Shown here: piece after piece, positions 38,556-52,145 of the stretch | How positions within the stretch are numbered: the stretch's first letter is position 1 | Layout of the letters: every line of letters starts with the position of its first letter | NCBI RefSeq assembly: GCF_014268275.3 | Contig: NZ_CP077084.1 | Span: 2,480,001 to 2,544,000, forward strand | Direction: 5' to 3' | Length of the DNA stretch: 64,000 nt | Source: Pseudomonas tritici | GTDB lineage: Bacteria; Pseudomonadota; Gammaproteobacteria; Pseudomonadales; Pseudomonadaceae | Position numbers and translations under genes: made by a program | Notes under the pieces: generated by a model | Seen by the model: only the letters and a program-made list of their open reading frames with translations | Told to the model about the DNA's origin: nothing | Database searches by the model: none

Positions 38556-38632
<77 letters not shown>

Positions 38633-38640
38633 CATTCAGA

Positions 38641-38669
38641 AAAAGCCACTCAAATGAGTGGCTTTTTTT
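38641..38669 (+). terminator. Terminator after tRNA-Gly
   Basis: AAAAGCCACTC and GAGTGGCTTTT pair around AAAT and are followed by further T residues. It ends tRNA-Gly transcription, and may also act on the minus strand because the stem is preceded by a run of A. It would have come with the island. Confidence 0.85.
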
Positions 38670-38809
38670 GTGCCTGAGAAATACCCGCACTCATTTCGAT
38701 AGGATGCTTTTGGCCAAAAAACGGACCCTGTCTTGGACGTTCAGTTTCCAAGAAGGACACCCTCAAGGGCTGGAGTTCGATTGAGGTCAAGGCGCCTGTA
38801 GTTAGCGGT

Positions 38810-40168
38810 TCATTTATGAAGTGTCTTTTGCTGAGCAGTAATTGTTTCTACGCCCGGCTCGGAAATATTCGTTTCTTTAAGTGGGACTTCGCCTACCGAA
38901 AGCGCACGCTCTATGAGTAACTCGCTGCCTTTGTCTTTCAATAAGTCCTGCAGTCGCTGGAATTCGCCGCACCAGATGGTTTCAATGTCGCGATCCCGTG
39001 CCCTATCGCGATCGCTGCTGAGGGCTACAGCGCGAACCTGCAGGCGGCCATTGTCGGCTTTTCCACCCACTTCCACTCCATAACCGGGGGTAGCGGCTTT
39101 GCGCAGTACGATCTTGCCGGTTTCTGCCCAGGCAGTCGCCATGCCTTCGCGCACTTCGTAGCCGAGGCTGGCCAAGCCGCTGAGCACGGCTTCGCGGCGG
39201 GCGAGGGCGGCCTGGTCCTGTAAGTGGGAAGCGATAAGCGCTTTACACTGCTCGATCAATCCGGTGGTTATCGAAAGCTCGGTGTCGGTTGTAAAAGCGC
39301 CAATATGATCGAGCAGGGTCGCGTGTTCGATGCCTGTGTAGGTTTTGACTTCGCTGGCCAGATCCTGCAGTTGTTCGAGACACTCGCGTTGGCGTCGGAA
39401 GTTTCGGGTGGACGCGGCGAGGTCGAGTACTAGGCTGTCAAGCAGCAGGTTGCGTCGCTTAGCATCGGTTTGCGTTTCAGCTCTTTCCAGTGCCAAGAGG
39501 AACGGCGCGGCACATTCAGCGCCTTGCAACAGTTGCAGCTCCACGATGTGGCGGTCAATGCGTAGCAGCCGTGCGTCGCGCGTTGCATCCGGTTCCCGGG
39601 CCGCAATCCATTCGCGCAGGGAAACCTCGGGTTCGTCGACCTTGAGTTGCTGCGCCAGGGCGCGTTGGGTATCGCTCAGAGCTGGCTCCTCGCTTGCCTT
39701 GCTCAAGTGGGCGAAACCCTCGGCTAGCAGACGTTCGGCATCTTCCCGACTGGCACCGCTGGCCAGTCGTAAGAGAGACTCCAGCAAGGCCTTATCGACG
39801 TTTTCGGGGTTGGCTTGCAAGGCGTCAAGCAGGGTTTTTGCGTTTTCCTGGACGCGTCGGTCGCGTTGGCGTCGCTCGGCGGCACGAATTATCGCGCGTT
39901 CTTCGCGGTCCTCCAGGTCACGGCGCAGGTGCTCGATTTCCACTGGTACGGCCTTCTGCAGTTCCGCCAATCGGTCTTCTGCCAGCAGAGTGCGAAGGCG
40001 AGTGTGTCGCTCCAGGAAGGCTGAGCGCTCCTGGTCACTAAGTTCGCCCAGCCTTGTGGCCTGTGTCTGCCAGCGGTCCACGGCGCGTTCCAGGCGTTGC
40101 ATGTGGCCCTCACAAATGGCGATGATTTCTTCGCGGGTAACAATGCGAACGACCTTGGGACCACTCAT
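38810..40168 (-). CDS. Coiled-coil protein of the island operon, unknown
   Basis: A 452-residue soluble protein that I cannot assign. Residues about 15-340 are almost wholly charged and helical (for example LRRDLEDREERAIIRAAERRQRDRR), consistent with long coiled coils. The C-terminal 110 residues include strand-like stretches (KIVLRKAATPGYGVEVGGKADNGRLQVRAVALS), suggesting a small globular domain. It is the last gene of the operon. Its ATG overlaps the stop of the giant helicase gene by 4 bp, so the two are translationally coupled and probably act in one complex. It may be a scaffold or clamp-like partner, by inference only. Confidence 0.8.
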   Translation of the reverse strand: MSGPKVVRIVTREEIIAICEGHMQRLERAVDRWQTQATRLGELSDQERSAFLERHTRLRTLLAEDRLAELQKAVPVEIEHLRRDLEDREERAIIRAAERRQRDRRVQENAKTLLDALQANPENVDKALLESLLRLASGASREDAERLLAEGFAHLSKASEEPALSDTQRALAQQLKVDEPEVSLREWIAAREPDATRDARLLRIDRHIVELQLLQGAECAAPFLLALERAETQTDAKRRNLLLDSLVLDLAASTRNFRRQRECLEQLQDLASEVKTYTGIEHATLLDHIGAFTTDTELSITTGLIEQCKALIASHLQDQAALARREAVLSGLASLGYEVREGMATAWAETGKIVLRKAATPGYGVEVGGKADNGRLQVRAVALSSDRDRARDRDIETIWCGEFQRLQDLLKDKGSELLIERALSVGEVPLKETNISEPGVETITAQQKTLHK

Positions 40169-43100
40169 TGGCAGATTTCCGTATCAACTGAAGTAGGGCT
40201 GGGTTGCGGCGGTTGCTCGGCTTGCATGGCGTATTCGATTGCTTCACGCAGTCGTGAGCGTTCGCTGTCGCCGCTGTGATACCAGGCTTGCGACGACACA
40301 CGATGGATGTGCGGGATGGCGCGGTGCAGCACGGACGGGCGCCAAATTTCCCGGGCGCGGGCACGTTCCAACAGATTATGGCAAGGCGCATCGCACTCGA
40401 TGCCTATTGCGTACAGGCCCGTGCTTGGATTCTCGATGGCGAAATCGAGCCCGAAAGCGTCGCCTTCACTGGCGGGAGCCGCCTGCCATCCCAGGGAATG
40501 AATGAATTCACCGACCAGCCTGACAAAACCATCACTTTGCTGACCTTGCTCACGACGCTGGCTGCTGCTGCGGTCGGTCTGCAGGCGCTCCAGCAACTTG
40601 GTGCTGTTGCTGAACTCGCCCGAGGAGAGCGCGCGAGCATATTCCAGATAGCCTTGCAGATAGTCTCTCGGGCTGTTGGGCGCGCGGTGCGTGTTTAGCA
40701 TGTCCGAGATATCGGCGATTGGCATCGACGTGATCATCACCACCTTGCGACGCGCGCGGGTCACCGCCACGTTCAGGCGTCGTTCGCCCCCCGTCTGCCC
40801 CAGTACGCCGAAGCTACGGCGGAATGTGCCTTGGCTGTTGCGCCCAAAGGTGGAGGAGAAGACGATGATGTCGCGTTCATCCCCCTGCACGTTCTCCACG
40901 TTCTTGACGAACACCGACATATCCTCGCCGTCTTCGCTGCGCTCGCGCTCCTGGGCGTAGGCGGCGCGGAACAGTTCATCCTGCTCTGCACGCTGCTCCA
41001 AGTGCTCCTCGATGAGGTCAGCCTGCTTGCGGTTGAAGGTGACGACACCCACCGAAGGGCGCTGGTCGTAGGGCTTCTGCCACAATTCGCTCAGGTACTC
41101 GACGACCCGTTCGGCTTCCTGGGCGTTACTCTGGTTCTGATACAGCCCGCCGACCTGGATCAGCTCCAGCGGCTTAATGCGTTGGATGTTCGCCTGCGGG
41201 TGACGGACCGGAACGTTCAGGCGATTGCCATAGAACGAAGCGTTGGAAAAGCCGATCAGTTCACGGTAGGCCGAACGGTAGTGGATCTGCAATGTGGTGC
41301 TGGGCAGGGCGTTGCGCGCCAGCTGCAGCAGGTCGGGACAATCCTTGATCTCACGACGGTTCCAAGTGTCTTCGAACGCTTCGCGCTGTTCCTCATCCGC
41401 GTCGTCGTCAGGTTCGTCGCCGTCAAACACTTCGGCTTCGTCGCTTTCGATGCGACTGGAAAAGAATGCCGTCGGCGGCATTTGCTTTTCATCGCCGCTG
41501 ACAACAGTGACCTGACCGCGGAACAGGGTCGGCAGGGCGAACTCAACCGGCATCTGCGAGGCTTCGTCATAGATGACTGTATCGAACAGGCCTGCCTTGA
41601 GCGGCAGTACACGACTGGCGACGTCCGGGTTCATCAGCCACACCGGACGCAGGCTCATCAAACCGAGGTTACTACCCAGTTCGATGAATTCACGCAGGCG
41701 CCGCGAGCGTTTGCCAGTCAGGCGGGTAACATCCTCCCATTGTTTGCGATTGCCCAGGTTATCGAGGTTGATGCCTTTGGCCAGCAGCTCACGATTGAGC
41801 AGCCGCATCTGTGCGTCGGCTTGCGCGAGGCTGCCGACTTTGGCGCGGGCTTCGTCCTGGCTGAGCAGCAGTTCGGGATTGGTTTGCTCTACGCGGTGTT
41901 TCCAGCCCAGTCGGGCTTCGCGGTTGAGCAGGCGCCGCACTTCGGCTTCAAGTTGCTCGGGCGCAATGTTGTCCAACTGTTCCTGGCGTTGGCGCAGCAA
42001 TGCGAGCAGCTCCAGGTCGGCTGCTGTCAACTGAGCGGCGCGCCCGCGGAATGCCTGGTAGGCGGCCAGGAAGGGCAGCGCTTCATGCAGCCGATCAAGA
42101 GACAGTTGATTGCTCAGATTGTGCTCGATGGCGTGCTGCAGTTGCTGCACCAGTTCTTCGCCCAGCCAGTCGCCGAGTATCTTGAGTTGCTCGAGGCTGG
42201 ATTGGCGAACGCCATGGCGCATCAGCGAAGCATCGAGATCGCTGAGCAGCGCCTCGAGATGGTGTTTGTCGCCGGCGAGGGCGGCCTCGTCGGCCTGCCG
42301 AGCGCGAGGCGATTGCGCCAGCGCCATGGCCAGAGCCTGGATTTCCAGCAGGTGGCGGATGTCGCTCTTCACGAAGCTGATCAATTCCAGGCAGGCTTGC
42401 TGACTCACAGCTTCCAGTTCCAACGCCTGGTGCAGCGTACTCAACTCGGCGCGCAATGGTCGCCACTGGCTTTCAAGGCGGATGGCTGCCTGTAGGGTTG
42501 GTAGTGCTTCAATAACACGGCTTTCTCCCTGGCCCTGAAGGAAATTGCGCAGTCGGTTGCGCCGCAACAGATTCATCGGGTTGATGTTCGCCAACCAGGA
42601 CCGGGTTGCCATGACCTTGGTGCAGTCTTGATCCAGATGCCTGAGGGCCTTGTTTTCGAGCAGGCAGAGGGCCGGTGACAAGGCGGGGGCGTAGTGGTCC
42701 TGATCCAGTTGGCCGAGTTGCTGATCCAGTTGCTGTAGTTCACCGAGAATCGACTCTCCCCGTGGAGGTTGGTCCGCTTCGCGGCTGCGGAAAAGCGGTA
42801 GCCAGCGCGCAAGGCGCAGACGTTGCTCTTGCTTCAGGTCGAGCAGGGCAGCGACATGGGCCGCTATCCAGTTACGGTACGGCGCCGGGTCGTCGATTTC
42901 GAAGCTGGCAGGGTGTGCTTGCAGCGTGGCCTGACGGTTGTGTTCGGCTTGGGTGAAACTGTGCAGATTGTCGGTGAAAGCCTGCAAAGTCGCCCGGTCG
43001 GCGGCGAACGACTGCAACTGGGCCAATGGGCTGCCTTCGTAGCGTGCGGGTAACCACAGGCGAATCAGAGGGGCGCAGCTTTCTTCCAAGCGTGTCAGGC

Positions 43101-46100
43101 TGGCGAGGTCCAAGGAGGCCAGGCGTTGGCGCAGGGCCGGAAACTCGAGCGGGGCCGGGCCGGATTCCAATTCAATTAACTCGCCGAGCAGCCTGCGATA
43201 GCTGAGGCCGGTATTCTCATCCAGGCGATGCAGGCTCTGGTGGAAGCGGTCGAGCTCGCCCTCCAGGGCCTCGATGCGGGCCGCGACCTGCTCGCGCTGG
43301 CGCTGCCAGCCCTGAGCCTGGCTGCCGTTCGTGAACAGGCTTTCCAGTTGTTCGCGAATACCGCGGATGACGGGCTCGCGGTCTCGGTTCACGTCATTGA
43401 GCATGACGATGCGTTGGCCAAGGCCCTCGGCGACCAGGCGTTTGTACACCACCTCGAGCGCCGCATGCTTCTGGCAGACGATAAGCAAGCTGCGCTGGCG
43501 GCCGATGGCGTCGGCGACCATGTTGACGATGGTCTGGCTCTTGCCGGTTCCAGGCGGCCCCTCGACCAGCAGTCCCGGGCTTTGTCGGGCCTGGATCACG
43601 GCCGCTTCCTGGGAGGGGTCGCTGGCCACGGTGAAATAGCGTTGCAGCTCGCCTGGAGGTGTCTCGTGCGTGGTTTCATCGGCGGTCTTGAGGCGCAACG
43701 CCGTTTCCAGGCCGGTACCGGCGGGCGACAGGGTTTTCAGTTGGCGCAGGTCCTCCCCGATGGCTTGTCCCATGAAGGTCACGTGAAACAGCACCGCCGC
43801 GCAGTCCAGCTCGTCTTGGTAGGGCGCGATCTCCACGCTGCTGGCGGGCAGGTTGCCAAGGGCGCGTGAGCGAATGGTGGCGAGCATGCCGAAGGCGTCC
43901 ATCACATCCGTCGCACGAATTGACGAGCGGCCCAGCAGTTCATCGACGGTCTTGCGCCAACGTTTGCAGGTTTCGGCGCCGAGCACGCTTTCCAACGCGG
44001 GGTTGAGCCGCACTTCCTCGCGCTCACTGTCAAACGCCAAGGCGGCGTGACCACGAGAACCCAGTTCCAGCAGCAGCTTCACTGGCCATAGCAGCAGCGG
44101 GATAATCCGTGTGCGCGTGGTGCCGCGAGGGTCGCGATTGAGCAGGAAAGGGAAGCCCAGGTACAGGCCGTCGATGCCGGTGTCGCGTTTGTACAGCGCG
44201 CTTTGCCGGTACAGGGCATGCAGGCGCGATTCCAGCTGGCCGTTGAGCTGAAAACTCTCTGGGTCGAGGCTCACTGCCCGGGCATTACGTTGCAGCAGGT
44301 GATCGAGCAAAGCCGCGGCCGGACTGCGCTCGCTGTTCAGTTCACTGATGTCGACCCGTGCGGTGGTCTTGCCGATGCTCATACGCACCAGTGGCCCGCG
44401 CATCACTGCGGTCACCACCTTCTTCTCGAAGAAGTCGAGGATCTGTGAGACGTACTGCTGTTTCTGTGGTTCCAGCCAATGACTGGACGGGATGGCCAGC
44501 AACACCAGTGCCTGGGCCAACGGCATACGTCGCTCCAGGCGGAACTGCTCGGCCCACTCGTCCACTGCCGGCACGCCACACCGGGCAAAGCCTTGGATGC
44601 GTTCATCGACACTGCGGTACAGCTCAAGTCGCGAATGCAACAGCAGTTGGGTTGCCGCTTCGGAGTCGAACCAACCGACATCGGCAGCCCTGGCGAGCTC
44701 GGCGGCGGCCTCTACGATTGAGGCCCCCGAACGGAACTGACTGATCGCCGCGCTGAGCAGCACGATCAGGTCTTCTTCGGCGATCACCCGGCGCTCCGAC
44801 AGAGAGCTCAGTCCCGGATGGTCGGTGTCTGGAAACAGGCGTTGGCGCTCTTGCCATTGCGTGGACAGCTTGGCTCGCGAGGTCGATAGCAGGAATATCC
44901 GCAGTTGTTCTTCGACCAACTCGATGTGTTGGTGCAGGGCACGCTGACGTACGTTTTCGGCGCGGGATTTGAGACGCGACAGCCAGTTGTCGGTCTGCAA
45001 TTGCTCAAGCAGGTCCGGGACCGACCCGCTGATCAGACGATAGCCTTCCAGTGGGTGCTCCAGTAGCCATCCTGGTGTGACGATGTCGCCACGATGAATC
45101 AACGGGATTTCCGGATTGAGGATTCTCAGCGCCAGCATTAGACGGAAATCGTCCTCGATCCCTTCGTGCTGAACGACCTGACGCAAGCCGGCGACTAGAG
45201 AGGGGGCGAGACTGACCTGCTCGGCCCAGGTCACGATCACACCGCGCAGCAAATGGTCCAGAGCCTGTTGCCAGTTATCCGCCTGGGCTGCCGCCAGGGC
45301 GAATACGCCGGGCTTGTGGAAGCGGCGCTCGCCCAGCAGCAGGGTCGCACCTTCACCTTCGTCCGTTTGCTGGACGGAAGAGGCCGGAGCCTCGACCGTA
45401 ATACCGTTGAGCCAGCCTTCGACCTGTGGCCATTGCCAGCGTTGATGACGGTCGCGCGCCAACAGACCTCGCAGCAGCAGGTGCAGGCGCGGGTCGAGGT
45501 CGTTGGGGATCGGTACTCCGTTGGCCAGCACGTGAATAAGAAATGCATTGGCATTGATGCCGTCGAAGCAGGCGCCCTGGGTCAGTTGCTCAAGCAGGAT
45601 CATGCCCAGGCTCCACCAGTCCGAGGCAGCCGCAACGCCGCCTGCGATGGCTTCGGGCGCCATGTAGCGGCTGGTTTCCAGTGGCGATACGATGTCCAGG
45701 TCGAACTCGGACAGGCGTGCCGAGCCGAAGCCGCTGATGACCAGGTCCAGCGGTTCGCGGGAACGTACCAGCAGGCTGGCTGGGCGCAGGTCACGATGGC
45801 GCAGGCCAGCCTCGTTGAAAGCGTGCAGCGCCAGGCCCAGTTCGTTGACCACATGGTGCACGCTGTCGCTGTCGCGGATCACGCTGCCAAGTTCTGCCAG
45901 GCTCCCGCCGGTGAGTTCTTCAATGACCTCATAGGCACGGTCATCCCAGCGGCCGGTGGCAATGATTTCGGGGACGTGCTCGCGTGGCAGTCGGCGGATC
46001 ACATCATAGATCGCCGGGTCCGGTTCGGCGCCAGGTCGATACAGGGTCAGGACCGCTTGTTGCGCGGTTTCCTCGTGCTTGGCGAGGTATCGTTCTCGCA

Positions 46101-46476
46101 CGCCGTCGGTACTGCTGATCTGACGAATCAGCCGCCAACCATCGATCAGGGTCTGGGCGATGCCCTCTGGTTCGCTGCTGTCTGGCTGGGCGTCGTAGGA
46201 CGTTACTTGCGCAAGTGAGCTGCCACATTCAAGGCACATCAGGTCGCCATCGACCATCGGGTGACCATTTTCGCAGAGCAGGTCAGGGACATTCCCTTGA
46301 GCCGGACTGACTGGCGGGAGGGTTTCCTCAGTGAAGACGGCTTGCGGCCGCCAGCCGGCGGCACGAATGGGTTCGCCAGCGAGGTCCCAGCCGCAGGGTT
46401 GTTCCTGAATGAGCCCTTCGCAGAACATTTCCTGGAGGGCGCGCTCGGTTTTGCAGTTAGGGCAGAAACGTATCAT
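40165..46476 (-). CDS. Giant zinc-ribbon / pseudokinase / SF1 helicase / endonuclease protein
   Basis: A 2103-residue protein. Cysteine pairs at 5/8, 19/28, 69 and 81/84 form zinc-ribbon-like units. Residues about 113-345 are a protein-kinase fold with HRDLRPAS (227-234), GFG for DFG (249-251) and MAPEAI (272-277). The ATP-binding lysine and DFG aspartate are missing, so it is probably a pseudokinase. The SF1 helicase core has Walker A GPPGTGKS at 973-980, DEAS at 1637-1640, and late motifs in NVQGDERDIIVFSS and NVAVTRARRKV. The C-terminal 120 residues match MTES_1575-type PD-(D/E)XK nucleases, with D2011, E2027 and D2029 (GIECD). It probably senses and cuts foreign nucleic acid. Confidence 0.88.
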   Translation of the reverse strand: MIRFCPNCKTERALQEMFCEGLIQEQPCGWDLAGEPIRAAGWRPQAVFTEETLPPVSPAQGNVPDLLCENGHPMVDGDLMCLECGSSLAQVTSYDAQPDSSEPEGIAQTLIDGWRLIRQISSTDGVRERYLAKHEETAQQAVLTLYRPGAEPDPAIYDVIRRLPREHVPEIIATGRWDDRAYEVIEELTGGSLAELGSVIRDSDSVHHVVNELGLALHAFNEAGLRHRDLRPASLLVRSREPLDLVISGFGSARLSEFDLDIVSPLETSRYMAPEAIAGGVAAASDWWSLGMILLEQLTQGACFDGINANAFLIHVLANGVPIPNDLDPRLHLLLRGLLARDRHQRWQWPQVEGWLNGITVEAPASSVQQTDEGEGATLLLGERRFHKPGVFALAAAQADNWQQALDHLLRGVIVTWAEQVSLAPSLVAGLRQVVQHEGIEDDFRLMLALRILNPEIPLIHRGDIVTPGWLLEHPLEGYRLISGSVPDLLEQLQTDNWLSRLKSRAENVRQRALHQHIELVEEQLRIFLLSTSRAKLSTQWQERQRLFPDTDHPGLSSLSERRVIAEEDLIVLLSAAISQFRSGASIVEAAAELARAADVGWFDSEAATQLLLHSRLELYRSVDERIQGFARCGVPAVDEWAEQFRLERRMPLAQALVLLAIPSSHWLEPQKQQYVSQILDFFEKKVVTAVMRGPLVRMSIGKTTARVDISELNSERSPAAALLDHLLQRNARAVSLDPESFQLNGQLESRLHALYRQSALYKRDTGIDGLYLGFPFLLNRDPRGTTRTRIIPLLLWPVKLLLELGSRGHAALAFDSEREEVRLNPALESVLGAETCKRWRKTVDELLGRSSIRATDVMDAFGMLATIRSRALGNLPASSVEIAPYQDELDCAAVLFHVTFMGQAIGEDLRQLKTLSPAGTGLETALRLKTADETTHETPPGELQRYFTVASDPSQEAAVIQARQSPGLLVEGPPGTGKSQTIVNMVADAIGRQRSLLIVCQKHAALEVVYKRLVAEGLGQRIVMLNDVNRDREPVIRGIREQLESLFTNGSQAQGWQRQREQVAARIEALEGELDRFHQSLHRLDENTGLSYRRLLGELIELESGPAPLEFPALRQRLASLDLASLTRLEESCAPLIRLWLPARYEGSPLAQLQSFAADRATLQAFTDNLHSFTQAEHNRQATLQAHPASFEIDDPAPYRNWIAAHVAALLDLKQEQRLRLARWLPLFRSREADQPPRGESILGELQQLDQQLGQLDQDHYAPALSPALCLLENKALRHLDQDCTKVMATRSWLANINPMNLLRRNRLRNFLQGQGESRVIEALPTLQAAIRLESQWRPLRAELSTLHQALELEAVSQQACLELISFVKSDIRHLLEIQALAMALAQSPRARQADEAALAGDKHHLEALLSDLDASLMRHGVRQSSLEQLKILGDWLGEELVQQLQHAIEHNLSNQLSLDRLHEALPFLAAYQAFRGRAAQLTAADLELLALLRQRQEQLDNIAPEQLEAEVRRLLNREARLGWKHRVEQTNPELLLSQDEARAKVGSLAQADAQMRLLNRELLAKGINLDNLGNRKQWEDVTRLTGKRSRRLREFIELGSNLGLMSLRPVWLMNPDVASRVLPLKAGLFDTVIYDEASQMPVEFALPTLFRGQVTVVSGDEKQMPPTAFFSSRIESDEAEVFDGDEPDDDADEEQREAFEDTWNRREIKDCPDLLQLARNALPSTTLQIHYRSAYRELIGFSNASFYGNRLNVPVRHPQANIQRIKPLELIQVGGLYQNQSNAQEAERVVEYLSELWQKPYDQRPSVGVVTFNRKQADLIEEHLEQRAEQDELFRAAYAQERERSEDGEDMSVFVKNVENVQGDERDIIVFSSTFGRNSQGTFRRSFGVLGQTGGERRLNVAVTRARRKVVMITSMPIADISDMLNTHRAPNSPRDYLQGYLEYARALSSGEFSNSTKLLERLQTDRSSSQRREQGQQSDGFVRLVGEFIHSLGWQAAPASEGDAFGLDFAIENPSTGLYAIGIECDAPCHNLLERARAREIWRPSVLHRAIPHIHRVSSQAWYHSGDSERSRLREAIEYAMQAEQPPQPSPTSVDTEICQ

Positions 46477-46490
46477 GGGGTGTGCTCCAC

Positions 46491-47135
46491 TCAGCGGCGT
46501 CGCGACGCGTGTGCGCTGATCTGTAAATGATGGCCTTGTTCATGCAGCAGATCGCGTAAGCGCAATAGATCGTCACGTCGTGGGATGCCGGCCATCCAGA
46601 CGCTGCCACTTTCGTCAAACATCAGGTCGAGCGCCTTGTCGGCGGGTTCGAGCGGGCGTTCGTAATGACCCAGGCGTGCCCGGCCCAGTGGCGTGAGCAG
46701 GCTCAGGCGTTGATTGTCACTGCCGCGCAAGGCCATGGTCTGACTGAGTGCTTCGATATAAGGGTCGCTGATCAAGGCATCTATCAAGCCCTTGGTCTGG
46801 AGCAACGACTCATTGAGTTGCTCCAGGGAGTAGCCACTGTAGACCAGGATGTCGAGCTCGCTGAGCCGACGCAGGCCTTCGAGCAGTGATCGCAGGGCGT
46901 CGAACTGGTCAAACGGTTCCCCTCCGGAAATGGTGATTCCTTCGGCCTCGTGCAGCCAGGGGGTTATCTGTTCAAGCAGTTGCTCCAGCGACAAGCGTCT
47001 GTGCCCTGGCCCCCAGGTATCGGCAGAGATGCATCCTGGACAGCGGATGCTGCAGCCCTGGAACCAGATACCAATACGCCGCCCCGGGCCGAGGGTAGTG
47101 ACCGGAAAATGCATGCGCGACAGGCTAAGGTCCAT
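46491..47135 (-). CDS. Radical-SAM 4Fe-4S protein, NrdG/PflA-like
   Basis: A 214-residue protein with the radical-SAM cluster motif CSIRCPGC (C28, C32, C35) and ITISGGEPFDQ, the SAM-binding GGE motif. The size and the start, MHFPVTTLGPGRRIGIWFQGC, resemble activases of glycyl-radical enzymes such as NrdG and PflA. No glycyl-radical enzyme is nearby, so the target is probably another product of this operon or a nucleotide. It lies 2 nt after the Clp-like ATPase gene and 14 nt before the giant helicase gene, so it is clearly part of the operon. Its role here is unknown. Confidence 0.85.
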   Translation of the reverse strand: MDLSLSRMHFPVTTLGPGRRIGIWFQGCSIRCPGCISADTWGPGHRRLSLEQLLEQITPWLHEAEGITISGGEPFDQFDALRSLLEGLRRLSELDILVYSGYSLEQLNESLLQTKGLIDALISDPYIEALSQTMALRGSDNQRLSLLTPLGRARLGHYERPLEPADKALDLMFDESGSVWMAGIPRRDDLLRLRDLLHEQGHHLQISAHASRRR

Positions 47136-47137
47136 GT

Positions 47138-48970
47138 TCAGCGACGTTCCATCTTCAGTCCAGTGATGTCCAACTCGGTGATCGTGAAGTGCTCGCCCGG
47201 TTGCGCGTCCTGATCGAACAGTGCCCGCGATAGGGGATTGAGCAGGCGTGCCTCTAACTGGTTGCGGATGCCCCGGCCACCGTTGGACAGGTCCTGCAGA
47301 CAGAGGCTGTGCAGTGTCTGGCGTGCCTGGGGGGCCAATTCGATAAACAGGTTCTGTCCCTGCAGGTCGTCGAAGGTGGCGTTGACCATTTGTTCGAAGA
47401 TCTGCACTGCAACGCCTTCGCGAATGAAGTCGAAGACGATGATGTTTTCGCCGATTCGATTGAGGATTTCTGGACGATTGAGCACGAGCTTGAAATACCG
47501 GTCGATCTCGCTGTGCACCTTCTCCTGGACTTGCTCGAAGGCTTCGTCAGGCAGGACGTTGGCAACGCGTTCGCCATTGTCGCCCTGGCGATAGATTCCC
47601 AGGTTGGAAGTGAACACGATCAGGGCCTCCGAAAAGTACACCCGATCACCGCGGCCTGAAGTCAGCACCCCGTCGTCGAGGATCTGCAGGAACTTGTCGA
47701 GAATCCGTGGGTGGGCTTTTTCGATTTCATCGAATAACACCACGCTGAACGGTTTCTCGCGGATAGCATTGGTCAGCTCACCGCCGACGTCATAGCCGAC
47801 GTAGCCGGGCGGTGCGCCGATAAGGCGTTGATCGGCATGCTCGGCGCTGAACTCCGACATGTCGAAGCGGATATATGCACTTTCGTCGCCGAACAGCAGG
47901 CTGGTAATCGTTTTGGCGAGTTCGGTCTTGCCTACGCCGGTCGGTCCCGCGAGAAAGGCTACGCCCCGTGGACGGTTGCCCTTGCGACTGGCGCCGACGC
48001 CTGTCATCGCACGCTTGACGATGTCGAGCATGTGCGTCACCGCATGCTCCTGGCCTTTGACACGCTGATGGACGACCGCGTCCGCATGCCGGATACGCTG
48101 ACGGTCGATCTTCAGCCACGGGTCCTCGGTGACACCGATCTTGTAGCGGCGCACCGCATCGGCAATCTGTTCCATGGCTACACCCTCGACCCGCGCCAGT
48201 TGCGCAATGGCGCTGAGATCGAGCAGCAGCAATCCCTCGGTGTTCTGGACGAAGGCTTCTACAGCCTGATGCATGACCACTTCGCTGGCGCCCTGGCTGC
48301 CACTGAGCCCTTTGAGCAACGCCGGTGCCAATGCACGGCGGGACAATTGATCAGGTTTGGACACGGGGATGTGGCGCAGGCGTGGGTTGTCGACCAGCAA
48401 CCAGTCGGGCAAATCGCCTTCTTTTTCCACCAGCCATAGCAGGGTATTGAAGAACGGTTTGCGCAGCTCCGTGGCCGGACGGCTGCGAGCCTGATGGGAT
48501 TGCACCAGGGCCTGGGTGAAGAGCTGGTGTTCAGCCGCGCTGAGGGAGTCGTTGCGAACCACCAGGCGCGAGGCGAAGTCGATGATCAGCGCGATAGGTT
48601 CGCCAGCACGACCCACCAGTCGTGGCAGGGTGGCGCCCAGCAGATCGATACCTGCGGGTGCTACGCCATTTACCGGAGTCAGGCCAAGTTCCTGAAGCAA
48701 CGTCTTGCCGGCTTCAGGGGCGGAACCGGGTTTGTCGACTACCCGGAAACCCGACACGGGATCCCAGGCGATGACCTGGGTGTAGCCAGCATCGAGTAGG
48801 GCATTACAGAGGGTTTGGTTGAAGCTCTGCGCGGTCACCGTGCCGGGCGTCACTTCACTGGCCTGCAGGTCGCGGATGTTGCCGGACAGGACGAATTGGC
48901 TCTTCAGCGGCAAGAAGCGGAGAAGATCTCGTAGCCAACGTGGGCTTTCAAATATGGCAATCCCTGACAT
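47138..48970 (-). CDS. Clp/Hsp100-like AAA+ ATPase
   Basis: A 610-residue ATPase and first gene of the four-gene operon. The C-terminal half (about 290-605) is a ClpB-D2-like AAA+ module with Walker A GPTGVGKT (342-349), Walker B VVLFDEIEKAHP (410-421), a GYVGYDVGG pore-like loop (389-397), a sensor-1 TSN (454-456) and a D2-small domain at the end. Residues 1-280 look like a second AAA-type fold without Walker A (QFVLSGNIRDL, then PIALIIDFASRL and LLVDNPRL), so probably non-catalytic. It lacks the Clp N-domain and ClpP loop. Remodelling of a partner protein by threading is the likely activity. Confidence 0.88.
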   Translation of the reverse strand: MSGIAIFESPRWLRDLLRFLPLKSQFVLSGNIRDLQASEVTPGTVTAQSFNQTLCNALLDAGYTQVIAWDPVSGFRVVDKPGSAPEAGKTLLQELGLTPVNGVAPAGIDLLGATLPRLVGRAGEPIALIIDFASRLVVRNDSLSAAEHQLFTQALVQSHQARSRPATELRKPFFNTLLWLVEKEGDLPDWLLVDNPRLRHIPVSKPDQLSRRALAPALLKGLSGSQGASEVVMHQAVEAFVQNTEGLLLLDLSAIAQLARVEGVAMEQIADAVRRYKIGVTEDPWLKIDRQRIRHADAVVHQRVKGQEHAVTHMLDIVKRAMTGVGASRKGNRPRGVAFLAGPTGVGKTELAKTITSLLFGDESAYIRFDMSEFSAEHADQRLIGAPPGYVGYDVGGELTNAIREKPFSVVLFDEIEKAHPRILDKFLQILDDGVLTSGRGDRVYFSEALIVFTSNLGIYRQGDNGERVANVLPDEAFEQVQEKVHSEIDRYFKLVLNRPEILNRIGENIIVFDFIREGVAVQIFEQMVNATFDDLQGQNLFIELAPQARQTLHSLCLQDLSNGGRGIRNQLEARLLNPLSRALFDQDAQPGEHFTITELDITGLKMERR

Positions 48971-49371
48971 GTTTCAGCTCGTAACGTTGGGGCGGTACGG
49001 GCAGGGTATTGCTCAATGCGCCCATTTGCCAGTGCGCTGTTACGAAAAGTTGTGTTGAGAGAGCGCGTCTGACGAGGCGCTTGTTTCACTGGGTGCTTTA
49101 TGCAACTTGATCGAGAGTCCGTCGGCGTACGAGCTGGGCGGGAAGGGTATCGACCCCCGCGATCAGCGTTGACTCGTGCGCAATGCCTGTTGCCCGGAAA
49201 AGCATCTTTCGCCTTTGATACTTGGAGGCGCCTACGAACTAAGGGCGAGCTACGCTGTATTATCGCTTCGGGGCTTCTTTTAACGCGTTTAACGTTCGAA
49301 CTCACGCTGGAGCCCGGCCTACTGAGCGTGAGTGTTTTGATGCAGTGCATACACTCCAATTCGTGTGCAAG
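48971..49371. other. Intergenic region with operon promoter and inverted repeat
   Basis: 400 nt without a convincing gene between the TIR gene and the Clp-like ATPase gene, which both read on the minus strand. A 9-bp perfect inverted repeat (ACTCACGCT ... AGCGTGAGT) at 49300-49333 could be a terminator for the TIR transcript or an operator. The four-gene operon must start here, but I saw no strong sigma-70 boxes. Confidence 0.5.
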
Positions 49372-50319
49372 TTACCGCTGCAGCGGTCCGATGAGTATTG
49401 ACCAAAACAGTTCTGCACCGCCTTCCTGAGTCAGTTTTTGTGAGCGTGAGACATGCATAGCCATACCCAGTGACTTAAGAAATAGTGATTGATCATCATG
49501 ATCCACCGAAAGCATCTCGTTAAAGCCACCACGAGCAGATGCACTGCTGGAGAATTCAATACTTCGTCCGCCCATGCCGCCAAGTGTTACGGAACATTCG
49601 CTGGCTTTGTTGCCCTGGCGATAGATCGCGCCGGTGAAGGTATTGCCGTCGATGCGGCGAAACTGACAGCTGATCCCGTCATTGCGAGCTTCCAGCTCCT
49701 GCAGCGAACCTTCGAAAAAGCGTGAGATGAAGTCAAACGATTCCTGCAAGTACCTATCAGCATCCAATTCACTGAACGTCTTTTTAAGGGCGAGGTTGCT
49801 GGAGCGAGAGGGGGCAACTACCGACGCTGGGAAAGAGGGCGCAGTTGGAACGGCAAGCGGGGTAGGCGAGTTCACTGACGGTGACATGCGTGTCACCACA
49901 GCTCGGATCTGCCTCGCGACATCGGTGTAGGCCTCGTCGTAATTCGGCCACGTCGTGATGGCTTTGCCATCCTTGGGTGCAGCGAGCAGATTGCCCAGCG
50001 GGGTTGAATGCCAATCGCAGGGTCGGACGATCACCGGGATGATCTGTGCTTCTCCTGCGGCATTTCGCTCCAAGGCTCGTGCCATTTCGATGGAGTAGCA
50101 GTAGCGAGAATCGAGAAAGCTTGAGCTGACGAGCAACAGGATGACGTCGGCCGCATTGATTTGTTGGTCTATTTCATTTCCAAGATGCTGTCCAGCCAGA
50201 ATTCGCCTGTCGTGCCATGATTCGATGAGCCTTTCATGGCGTAACGATGCCAGGTGTTTTTCTAACTGATCACGGTATTGCTCGTCATCGTGAGAATACG
50301 AAAAAAAGACCTTTGCCAT
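49372..50319 (-). CDS. TIR-domain protein with unknown C-terminal domain
   Basis: A 315-residue protein. Residues 1-140 are a TIR domain (KVFFSYSHDDEQYRDQLEKHL, then ADVILLLVSSSFLDSRYC). The glutamate in YSIEMARALE lies at the catalytic position of NAD+-cleaving bacterial TIRs. A Ser/Pro-rich linker near 150-180 leads to a C-terminal domain of about 130 residues that I do not recognise (FRRIDGNTFTGAIYRQGNKASECSVTLGG). Bacterial TIR proteins usually deplete NAD+ or make signal nucleotides in anti-phage defence. The ATG at 50319 follows AGGAG. It is upstream of the four-gene operon but 400 nt away, so it may be separate cargo. Confidence 0.87.
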   Translation of the reverse strand: MAKVFFSYSHDDEQYRDQLEKHLASLRHERLIESWHDRRILAGQHLGNEIDQQINAADVILLLVSSSFLDSRYCYSIEMARALERNAAGEAQIIPVIVRPCDWHSTPLGNLLAAPKDGKAITTWPNYDEAYTDVARQIRAVVTRMSPSVNSPTPLAVPTAPSFPASVVAPSRSSNLALKKTFSELDADRYLQESFDFISRFFEGSLQELEARNDGISCQFRRIDGNTFTGAIYRQGNKASECSVTLGGMGGRSIEFSSSASARGGFNEMLSVDHDDQSLFLKSLGMAMHVSRSQKLTQEGGAELFWSILIGPLQR

Positions 50320-50325
50320 TGTCAC

Positions 50326-50936
50326 TCCTAACCTGCCCGTTGATGAATATGCGCTTCCGAATTGTCGTGTCGAAATAGATCATGTGACTTGTGACGACTC
50401 AAGGCATATTCGCACAAGGCTGCGCCGGGCGCTCATACGCTTAACACATCAAGGTGGTGACTGGAAGGCGAAACAACGGCAGCGTATGCCAGTAGCTGTC
50501 TTGACACCCGAAATTTCGGTTATGCCACTTGAGCTGAGCACTCTGCCGGCTTTCGACCCAAGCTGGAGCTGCTGTGCTGTACCCTGTGCGGGAAGCCCTG
50601 TCGGGGAGGCGGATGGAAGTAAGCGTCAGGTTAGTTTATATGTTCATGGCTTCTGACAGAGTTTGACGCGCCCAGCCTTGGTCATTGAGTATCCGGCCAG
50701 GCAGTTCATCCAAGACCTCAGAGCCTCGCGGGGGCGCCTGCCCCACCAATAAATCATCTGCCCATCGACGTTACCTGGTTCATCTCTGGTGATTGGCAGA
50801 AGGCGCGAATCCCTCAGCTTGGAATAAACTCCCTCTTGACCTTTGAAACACTTCAAAAACAAGTCCAGGATTAAGTCCTTTCCTGCATCGGAAAGAAAAT
50901 AAAACCTTTAGATTTCAATGGGTCGGACGCTAGATA
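50326..50936. other. Right end of island without clear genes
   Basis: About 600 nt between the TIR gene and the right attachment copy. Open frames of 72 and 90 codons exist (50644-50862 minus, 50384-50656 plus), but neither shows a family motif or good ribosome-binding site. A decayed integrase would be expected here, but none is recognisable. Confidence 0.5.
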
Positions 50937-50958
50937 CGAGTTTCGTTTCCCGCTCCAA
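50937..50958 (+). repeat. attR: copy of tRNA-Gly 3' end
   Basis: 22 bases identical to 38611-38632 except for one C/T change. No complete tRNA precedes it, so it is a remnant left by integration rather than a second gene. The change falls in the T-arm stem and is a sign of drift after integration. Confidence 0.8.
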
Positions 50959-51002
50959 AATTTGATCTGCGGATGTCCATTGGGCACTGGGATCCACGAA
51001 AT

Positions 51003-51023
51003 AGACGCTTAGGCGTCTTTTTT
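51003..51023 (+). terminator. Hairpin terminator after attR
   Basis: AGACGC and GCGTCT pair around a 4-nt loop and are followed by T residues. Its position 45 nt past the tRNA-end copy suggests it terminated tRNA-Gly before the island arrived. Confidence 0.8.
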
Positions 51024-51389
51024 CGTTTCTGCGGGAAAACACTGAAATCCAGGGCAATCCAATCCGGTACGTTTAAGTATCGTTTTAAGTACTGTCTAAC
51101 GGACAGGCTCAAATTTGTATTGTTGCTGGGTCCTCTCAGGTCTTCAGACGAGTGTCCATCGACGACTCCTGCGATATCCTCCCGTGCCAAGACGGCTAAA
51201 ACGCCTATCGCTGCTGTAGCTCCCCAGAAAAAACAACCGCTGATCACGCCGGCCTCCAGCAGGGGTGCAGGCTTACGACCTTGATGCATTGCCGCGCCCA
51301 TAATCCGCATGTTGCTGGGGCCGGAGCTCGCCGCTCTAGCGATACTTGCGAGTCGTCTGTCGCGCTTGCTGGCGCGCGTTGGGTTGCTG
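51024..51389. other. Gap between island and iron locus, no clear gene
   Basis: About 365 nt with open frames on both strands, but no recognisable protein motif and no good ribosome-binding site. One minus frame (50930-51310) has a hydrophobic stretch (GCFFWGATAAIGVLAVLA) but runs through the tRNA-derived repeat and the terminator, so I do not accept it as a gene. Confidence 0.5.
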
Positions 51390-52145
51390 TCAAGTTATCC
51401 CATCGATCAAAATATGTCGTTGCCCACGGCTGCATTGCTCAATCCGCGCCTCAACCTGGTACACCTCGCGAAGCATGTGTTCGGTGATCACCTCATGACT
51501 CGCGCCGCTGCCCTGCGCGGTGCCGTCGGCAATCACCAATACCTGGTCGGCAAAGCGCAACGCCTGGTTCAGGTCATGCAGGGCAATAAACACGATCACC
51601 TTCTGTTTGCGGGCCAGTGCGCTCATGAAGTTCAACACTTGCACCTGACGATGCATATCGAGGGCGCTGGTGGGCTCGTCCATCAGCAGGATTTCCGGCT
51701 CGCGCACCAAGGTCTGGGCGATTGACACCAGTTGCTGCTGGCCGCCGCTGAGTTCGCCGAGGTTGCGAAAGGACAAGTCACTGATGCCAAGGGCCTCGAG
51801 CATTTCGTCCACCAGATTCAGTTCGTCATCGTGGACGGTCCATTGCGGCGACAGTTGCTTGCGGGCCAGGAGCACCGATTCATAGACCGTCAACCGTGCA
51901 CTGGCATTCAAGCCCTGGGGCATGTAGCAGATGCCTTGCTGGCCCTTTTTCGAGTCCTGCAGGATCACCTGTCCAGGCCCATCGATCAGCCCGGCCATGC
52001 GTTTAAACAAGGTGGATTTGCCCGCGGCATTGGGGCCCACCACGGCGACCACCTGGCCGCCGTTGAACGCGGCAGTGGTAACGCCGCGGATGATCGTGCG
52101 CTGGCCATAGCGGGCACCCAGGTCTTGCAGCTGAATCTTCACCAT
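51390..52145 (-). CDS. Iron-siderophore ABC transporter, ATP-binding protein
   Basis: A 251-residue ATPase of the FecE/FepC type energising uptake of a ferric siderophore through the inner membrane. Walker A is GPNAAGKST, the signature LSGGQQQ, Walker B ILLMDEPTSALD, and the H-loop histidine lies in FIALHDLNQA. Its start overlaps the permease gene by 7 bp. It is the last gene of the uptake unit. Confidence 0.93.
   Translation of the reverse strand: MVKIQLQDLGARYGQRTIIRGVTTAAFNGGQVVAVVGPNAAGKSTLFKRMAGLIDGPGQVILQDSKKGQQGICYMPQGLNASARLTVYESVLLARKQLSPQWTVHDDELNLVDEMLEALGISDLSFRNLGELSGGQQQLVSIAQTLVREPEILLMDEPTSALDMHRQVQVLNFMSALARKQKVIVFIALHDLNQALRFADQVLVIADGTAQGSGASHEVITEHMLREVYQVEARIEQCSRGQRHILIDGIT

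Follow-up and report, generated by a model that had tools for sequence, protein, structure and literature searches.

The 64,000-nucleotide stretch of the Pseudomonas tritici genome studied here (NZ_CP077084.1, positions 2,480,001 to 2,544,000; hereafter the window, whose numbering is used below) contains, on the minus strand, an operon of four genes. In the order of transcription they encode a Clp-type AAA protein of 610 residues (47138-48970), a radical S-adenosylmethionine (SAM) protein of 214 residues that resembles NrdG and PflA (46491-47135), a giant pseudokinase-helicase-nuclease of 2103 residues, which is the effector candidate (40165-46476), and a protein of 452 residues that is coiled-coil by composition (38810-40168). 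The first two genes are separated by 2 nt and the second and third by 14 nt, and the giant gene overlaps the coiled-coil gene by 4 bp; a first-pass annotation, made from the sequence of the window, had given these spacings and coordinates, and all were exact on re-check. The four proteins were scanned against Pfam, NCBIfam and PADLOC. Pfam agrees with the classes proposed in that annotation for the AAA protein, the radical-SAM protein and the giant, and gave no match above its cut-off for the coiled-coil protein. The genome itself is complete and consists of one contig of 6.24 Mb. A simple promoter and terminator scan returned no more signals than chance.

The distribution of the four genes supports the view that they form one unit of inheritance and transfer. 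A scan with an alignment of the coiled-coil protein over one genome per species (84,980 species) gave 131 relatives, of which the best 80 were retained; five of these loci are truncated where their contigs end (L071, L080, L088, L089 and L097), which leaves 75. All four genes, in the same order and on the same strand, are present at 74 of these 75 loci, the exception being a fragment of the coiled-coil gene in Lysobacter soli (L108) without the other genes within 10 kb. The co-occurrence in other genomes that the first-pass annotation had named as a check is near-perfect, not rare. According to the record titles, several of which denote metagenome-assembled genomes (MAGs), the complete loci belong to Gammaproteobacteria (36), Betaproteobacteria (19), Alphaproteobacteria (14), Pseudomonadota without a named class (1), Chlamydiota (3) and an acidobacteriotal MAG (1). 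Strains of P. protegens and P. brassicacearum contribute to this set. Together with the window the 74 loci form the 75 rows of the alignment used below for residue conservation; the AAA gene of one locus (L041) is cut by a contig end. Because the first scan had used the coiled-coil protein, a second selection was made with the AAA gene. It turned up in 7 of the 199 genomes from the genus, in 4 of 59 drawn from the family and in 7 of 398 drawn from the phylum. Our own genome is counted each time, and the genus and phylum counts may be low, being based on the top candidates per genome only (at most six and three, respectively). Among the 16 distinct genomes selected in this way, 11 have the four-gene set. 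In the family draw the set occurs in 3 of the 59 genomes, and the fourth match is of a type in which the AAA gene accompanies a helicase and a PIN protein. The remaining genomes contain this helicase-PIN type (G241, where PIN and hypothetical genes are seen and the retrieved stretch ends), the AAA and radical-SAM genes with a kinase (G272), a partial copy with the AAA gene, the radical-SAM gene and a short giant, in which the coiled-coil gene was not found (G455, locus L180), or the AAA gene alone on contigs of 10.3 and 8.4 kb (G264 and G433).

In the AAA protein, where Pfam finds AAA_2 and ClpB_D2-small domains, the Clp/Hsp100 D2 domain carries Walker A at residues 342-350, a Tyr pore loop (GAPPGYVGYD) at 385-394 and Walker B at 412-415, and a profile of 53 relatives compared with the PDB aligned the D2 domain of solved ClpB and ClpC with about residues 257-598. 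The Walker A sequence GPTGVGKT, the Walker B sequence LFDE and pore residue Y390 occur in 75 of 75 rows, and these counts, with the D2 alignment, place the protein in the Clp/Hsp100 family. It differs from ClpB and ClpC in lacking an active D1 and the ClpP loop and in having another N-terminal domain (about residues 1-285). This domain ahead of D2 is probably a degenerate AAA+ domain, as judged from a weak match of the N-terminal part to a VCP-like ATPase, for which the whole-chain E value is 5e-7, the best stretch is 196-257 and no stretch alone falls below 0.001. The ClpP-docking tripeptide [LIVM]G[FL] is present in one row and not seen in the other 74, the window protein included, and the AAA protein is therefore probably a remodeller without a partner protease. 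A relative from P. brassicacearum matches it at 98%.

The giant is assembled from several domains, of which Pfam recognizes Pkinase, DUF4011 (3.2e-9), AAA_11 and AAA_12 (4e-23 for AAA_12) and MTES_1575 (1.9e-16). From the N terminus, it consists of two zinc ribbons (C5, C8, C19 and C28; C68, H72, C81 and C84), a pseudokinase (about residues 114-352), a stretch without assignment (370-740), DUF4011 (745-832), an Upf1-like superfamily 1 (SF1) helicase (about 940-1920) and the MTES_1575 nuclease (1984-2080) with D2011 and E2027. Each of the eight zinc ligands is retained in 73 or 74 of the 75 rows, one of which has a gap here, and the nuclease residues D2011 and E2027 are retained in 73 of 73 and 72 of 73 rows, respectively. 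The kinase domain really looks dead from its residues, because the catalytic Lys and the DFG Asp have been lost: no Lys is found at 142-147, the beta-3 position 144 being Thr in 72, Ser in one and Val in one of 74 sequences, and the DFG Asp is replaced in all 74 (Gly in 70, Ser in three and Asn in one); the HRD Asp is retained in 69 of 74. The gene is split at three of the 74 loci (L076, L096 and L109) and at the contig-end locus L097, into two frames in all four.

The coiled-coil protein has a conserved C-terminal domain, defined from the alignments by LGYE (335-338), PGYGVE (361-366) and C400, the last of which is retained in 75 of 75 rows. Its start, MSGPK, is also found in 75 of 75 rows, a count that is biased since one of the two search patterns contained these letters. 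The 4-bp overlap of its start with the stop of the giant gene is kept at 65 of the 74 loci, and the two proteins are thus probably made in a fixed ratio; the gene is split at one locus (L099). We considered a glycyl-radical loop at PGYGVE and rejected it, because the motif lacks the usual Arg, which we take to be part of such loops, and because G362 is replaced by Asp in 10 of 75 rows, while G364 is kept in 73 of 75.

The radical-SAM protein raises the question of what it acts on. Pfam finds Fer4_12 in it and places Radical_SAM just below the cut-off (29.2 versus 29.5 bits), but its CxxxCxxC motif at 28-35 (C28, C32 and C35), the GGE of SGGEPF at 70-75 and LRGSDNQ at 136-142 are invariant in 75 of 75 rows, and the first of these marks it as a member of the radical SAM superfamily. 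Its closest solved structure is the pyruvate formate-lyase activating enzyme (1.2e-19) and its closest NCBIfam model is NrdG (E value 1.5e-21); with these activating enzymes it shares the CxxxCxxC and GGE motifs and the sequence family, and also a GSxNQ motif, which is presumably typical of NrdG. This kinship would fit an ordinary NrdG or PflA, with an anaerobic ribonucleotide reductase or some other glycyl-radical enzyme as its substrate, and the NRDD domain (PF13597) is indeed present in 3 of 13 AAA-bearing genomes. However, the operon partners here are an unfoldase and a helicase-nuclease, the score of 76.9 bits lies below the NrdG cut-off of 126.1, and neither NRDD nor Gly_radical (PF01228) was found in the complete genome of P. 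tritici. Within the reach of these two domain models, their absence contradicts such a role, and with the low score it does not place the protein in the NrdG/anaerobic ribonucleotide reductase system. Among the 13 of the 16 AAA-bearing genomes that were tested, 12 are without Gly_radical, 10 without NRDD and 10 without both. In P. tritici, a usual glycyl-radical enzyme is therefore an unlikely target, and we regard an ordinary activase as very improbable indeed; the radical-SAM protein probably acts on an obligatory operon neighbour.

The mobility of the operon is evident both from its insertion site and from a copy in another species. The 3' end of a plus-strand tRNA-Gly(gcc) gene (38556-38631), the insertion target, forms an attL-like sequence at 38611-38632, and an attR-like repeat of it (plus strand, 50937-50958) matches at 21 of 22 positions, a 20-mer of the repeat being expected 0.00 times by chance. 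In a relative (G004), a homologue (83%) of positions 50937-51152 of the window lies immediately after the tRNA, and next comes an integrase-type open reading frame of 268 residues with Phage_int_M and Arm-DNA-bind_3 domains. The repeat and this arrangement indicate that 12.3 kb, consisting of the operon and a TIR-domain gene only, were inserted at the tRNA, with the attR-like repeat as the right end. Of the tRNA-bounded island proposed in the first-pass annotation, the insert between tRNA-Gly end repeats holds, whereas the window has only one tRNA. Nor is a tRNA beside the operon the rule: among 60 related loci a tRNA was found at two, in one case inside the giant gene, so that only one lies outside the operon. 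The genome of a different species of the genus (G010) contains a stretch corresponding to 38804-49063 on the minus strand, with 95.6% identity (blastn). The uvrC-pgsA-tRNA-Gly locus of that genome is about 285 kb away, and a tRNA-end remnant lies near the copy. The shared stretch ends 6 bp past the coiled-coil gene and 93 bp upstream of the AAA gene, and no TIR gene was found there, which defines the transferable unit as the four genes with about 93 bp upstream. The TIR-domain protein itself (49372-50325, minus strand) is ThsB-like, with a full-length match to the PADLOC ThsB model (1.7e-124). A search that detected the gene in the window did not find it at 84 other loci, G010 included (74 of them covered with about 1 kb upstream and at most 10 kb downstream); we therefore rejected it as a fifth component, and it is probably outside the system. 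In the tree of the AAA protein, a quick tree with warnings on long branches at the root, two Stenotrophomonas genomes and one from Moraxellaceae fall inside Pseudomonas and Legionella groups with Chlamydiota. The latter clade, of Legionella quateirensis (L100) with three Chlamydiota and one unplaced proteobacterial MAG (L095, L102, L105 and L107), has an SH-aLRT support of 100 and suggests exchange among groups living in amoebae. Among viral contigs, the radical-SAM scan found nothing, the AAA profile gave, among the best 80 of 580 matches, only generic Clp-like ones, none of which reached residues 1-200, and the profile of the coiled-coil protein gave one partial case (L266, IMG/VR), with the coiled-coil gene and a partial giant and no AAA or radical-SAM match.

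The AAA and radical-SAM genes are also found in other gene company. When plasmids were searched with the AAA protein, 20 records were returned, nine of which were examined. The four-gene set is present on plasmids of Rhizobium and Caballeronia, and plasmids of Moellerella, Acinetobacter, Polaromonas, Leisingera and Photobacterium carry genes for a helicase, a PIN protein, a hypothetical protein, the AAA protein and the radical-SAM protein. An Aristaeella plasmid has a DUF4011 giant, a separate kinase, an MSGPK protein, an FHA/zinc-ribbon protein, the radical-SAM protein, the AAA protein and a phosphatase; its kinase, in which catalytic motifs are retained as judged by eye, aligns with the pseudokinase region of the window giant to about 110 residues past the kinase domain. 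From these separate parts the window giant looks like a fusion, and the AAA and radical-SAM proteins look like the constant core. On a Geminocystis plasmid (L018), an MSGSPK protein is encoded ahead of the AAA gene with two small genes between them, and a double-GTPase gene and a radical-SAM gene lie about 9 kb from the AAA gene. Kinship of the coiled-coil protein with its counterparts of types B and C is suggested by their place, the MSG-type N terminus in three of them and C-terminal ends that look similar by eye; pairwise profile comparison gave no reliable score. By eye we also noted proteins starting with MSGSPK or MSGEK near the AAA and radical-SAM genes of the Geminocystis plasmid and a Calothrix plasmid (L270), the latter of which encodes a protein of 272 residues with a C..CxWDL zinc ribbon resembling the N terminus of the giant. 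A separate kind of cassette, on plasmids of Paenarthrobacter, Rhodococcus and Paenibacillus (L267, L268, L269 and L271), has an AAA protein different from that of the operon and runs from AAA through DUF1257 (in Paenibacillus) or a hypothetical gene, DUF2997, and a helix-hairpin-helix gene, a hypothetical gene or nothing, to an NrdG-like radical-SAM gene.

Comparison with known defence systems concerns the giant above all. The first-pass annotation had recognized in it a helicase-nuclease of the type found in conflict systems, and its C-terminal half does fit the models of ProA (6.8e-149), PDC-S37 (3.3e-147), Hhe (1.3e-91) and MkoA (9.8e-48), with alignments of about 1150 residues to ProA and PDC-S37 and of 720, in the best stretch, to Hhe; for PDC-S37, a PADLOC candidate model that gives no cut-off, the score is 490.5 bits and the best stretch covers model positions 276-1350 of 1550. 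Hhe is a single-gene system defined by DUF4011, an SF1 helicase and a Vsr/MTES-type nuclease in one chain. The giant has this architecture, but it is accompanied by three other genes at 74 of 75 loci, and we know of no obligatory AAA, radical-SAM or coiled-coil genes in ProA, Hhe or PDC-S37. In Mokosh, the nuclease is of the PLD type, and type I combines a kinase with a helicase. The Upf1-like helicase of the giant matches MkoA only in part, no PLD domain was found by Pfam in the four proteins, the kinase lacks its catalytic residues and no AAA/radical-SAM pair is known from Mokosh, so the operon is not a Mokosh system. The first-pass annotation had further linked the operon to Ter stress modules, a link that fails because Pfam finds no TerY, TerD, TerB or vWA domain in it. 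The TerY-P system is described as a triad of a TerY vWA protein, a PP2C phosphatase and a kinase-zinc ribbon protein (PMC11090510); the operon encodes neither vWA nor PP2C, its kinase has lost the Lys and the DFG Asp, and membership was rejected. No model in Pfam, NCBIfam or PADLOC covers the four-gene set, in agreement with the earlier opinion that it is not a named defence system, and the literature searched yielded no name, assigned function, functional study or phenotype for it. The surroundings of the related loci were compared with a control, on the downstream side only and in terms of family counts. The 140 nearest downstream genes (of 143, two being dropped for length and one as a fragment of the coiled-coil gene) match 102 PADLOC families at 1e-10, with Wadjet JetC/JetD and type II restriction-modification among them, versus 9 for 138 control genes. 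The controls, a sample of 140 from 301 genes without its two longest members, come from five genomes, four of them relatives, which were not taxon-matched.

Genes matching the operon also appear at the border of the main defence hotspot of P. aeruginosa. All four genes are present in P. aeruginosa PA7 (L043) and in P. otitidis (L075), where tRNA-Pro, a MerR-like gene, ihfA and pheT, which correspond to the other border of the hotspot cDHS1, lie across a 7-kb gap from the coiled-coil gene. The tags PA2727 and PA2728 presumably denote the giant. Two reports on P. aeruginosa isolates list substitutions or indels in PA2727, also in PA2727 and PA2728 as one gene, and call it, for example, a DNA helicase, repair or histidine kinase gene (PMC4918941, PMC3697988). 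A 2023 study of P. aeruginosa defence hotspots, in its relevant section, gives the matching genes as the core border of cDHS1, a site at which 83.7% of loci contain at least one known immune system (PMC10250203). The right flank is described there as a small hypothetical gene, a large DUF4011 gene and a radical SAM gene, the order of our operon, while in that section the AAA gene is not named and no function is assigned (PMC10250203). From its order and domains, the DUF4011 gene would be the giant. The window operon, in its tRNA-Gly insert, is placed differently, and the operon seems to be fixed in the P. aeruginosa group and patchy in the genus of the window.

On this evidence we give about an even chance to the reading that the four genes compose a four-component system against foreign DNA, a DNA-targeting defence complex. 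The co-occurrence, the mobility, the retained 4-bp overlap, the conserved motifs of the nuclease, the AAA protein and the radical-SAM protein, the lack of Gly_radical and NRDD domains, the relatives of the giant, the ThsB-like neighbour, the cDHS1 border, the flank comparison and the AAA/radical-SAM pair on plasmids all support it. Of the complete anti-phage or anti-plasmid system that the first-pass annotation had postulated, the single unit of inheritance and transfer and the defence-type giant are retained, and the Ter connection and the island as a general setting are not; its proposal that the ATPase and the radical-SAM protein activate the giant stays an inference. If the complex is defensive, the giant would be the effector, with the SF1 helicase motor travelling on invading or abnormal DNA and the C-terminal MTES_1575/Vsr-type nuclease cutting that DNA, and the coiled-coil protein, translationally coupled to it, would probably be its permanent partner. 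The Clp-type ATPase, working with no partner protease, would thread or remodel a protein, and the radical-SAM protein would act on the protein so presented, the simplest candidates being the giant, the coiled-coil protein and the ATPase itself, thereby licensing or arming the complex. The pseudokinase and zinc ribbons would serve to dock or sense, as substitutes for the kinase and zinc-ribbon/FHA proteins that the Aristaeella type encodes separately. A bolder version is that of a new kind of immune complex, in which a Clp unfoldase presents a protein to a radical-SAM protein of the glycyl-radical-activase type, the target lies in the DNA-attacking machine and one AAA/radical-SAM core serves several effectors, namely the helicase-nuclease here, helicase and PIN proteins on plasmids, kinase, FHA and phosphatase proteins in Aristaeella and GTPases in a cyanobacterium. 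We consider this doubtful, and we know of no earlier activase of this type with a target other than a glycyl-radical enzyme.

Several observations weigh against a defence function. In PADLOC, the AAA protein matches only the generic AAA parts of PDC-M37B and DolB, no model matched the radical-SAM or coiled-coil proteins, and the giant remains far below the cut-offs of Hhe (NF042953; 307.9 versus 2000 bits) and ProA (NF058533; 497.9 versus 1500 bits). The excess of PADLOC families in the flanks rests on few proteins, since no family is matched by more than 2 of the 140 genes and mad2 matches 3 of the 138 controls, and among the flank Pfam families (25 of 97 shown) regulators, transporters and enzymes prevail, with three integrases and two AbiEii proteins. 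The section on cDHS1 uses the flank genes as border markers, not as defence genes, and reports the DUF4011 border gene in every P. aeruginosa isolate (PMC10250203); such core status would be unusual for defence. It rather favours the main rival, a core genome-maintenance or stress-response complex in which the helicase-nuclease processes damaged or stalled DNA of its own cell, the ATPase and the radical-SAM protein recycle or mature it, and the hotspot neighbourhood is incidental. The host-like GC content of the operon (0.57-0.64, against 0.53 in the TIR region), the AAA tree, in which the classes mostly stay together and the label changes 5 times versus a minimum of 3, and the strong conservation across the 74 loci (at least 59% identity to the window for the AAA protein and at least 43% for the giant) point the same way. 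A maintenance function is at odds, however, with the patchy distribution in the genus and the family draw, with the att-bounded insertion and the near-identical copy at another place in another species, and with the sets on the Rhizobium and Caballeronia plasmids, and we regard it as possible but rather unlikely.

The same mobility could instead mean that the operon is an accessory module of mobile elements, devoted to maintenance of plasmids or islands or to exclusion of rivals, with host defence as a by-product. Insertion at the tRNA in the window would agree with this, as would the sets on conjugative plasmids, one with ArdA and integrases and another with an integrase nearby. The core border in P. 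aeruginosa, as reported for cDHS1 (PMC10250203), speaks against it, and so do the single partial case among viral contigs and the 12.3-kb insert, where the five genes leave only 38632-38809, 48971-49371 and 50326-50936 and hence no room for an integrase; we hold such a module to be distinctly unlikely. No matter which explanation applies, the set spans three proteobacterial classes and beyond with no name or function in the libraries and literature searched, and a relative of glycyl-radical activases with invariant motifs is tied, in a cell where no glycyl-radical domain was found, to an unfoldase and to a helicase-nuclease of 2100 residues, which is puzzling. Should the operon prove to act in defence, bacterial immunity would gain a new level of control, by radical chemistry on a protein; should it prove otherwise, a DNA-processing complex that many bacteria retain has escaped notice.

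Some minor features of the neighbourhood deserve mention. Reading the neighbours of the TIR gene by eye, we saw no ThsA-like gene beside it, and the genome gave a single SIR2_2 domain, at C1:3290818, about 760 kb away. The Pseudomonas small RNA P15 was found in the window. The tRNA-Gly 3' end is repeated once more at G000:C1:2550738-2550805 (G000 being the genome of P. tritici), that is, near position 70738 in window numbering and 6.7 kb beyond its end, from which islands are probably stacked here; the further island that it suggests would hold the ABC-transporter-like genes, named by eye, that begin near 51390.

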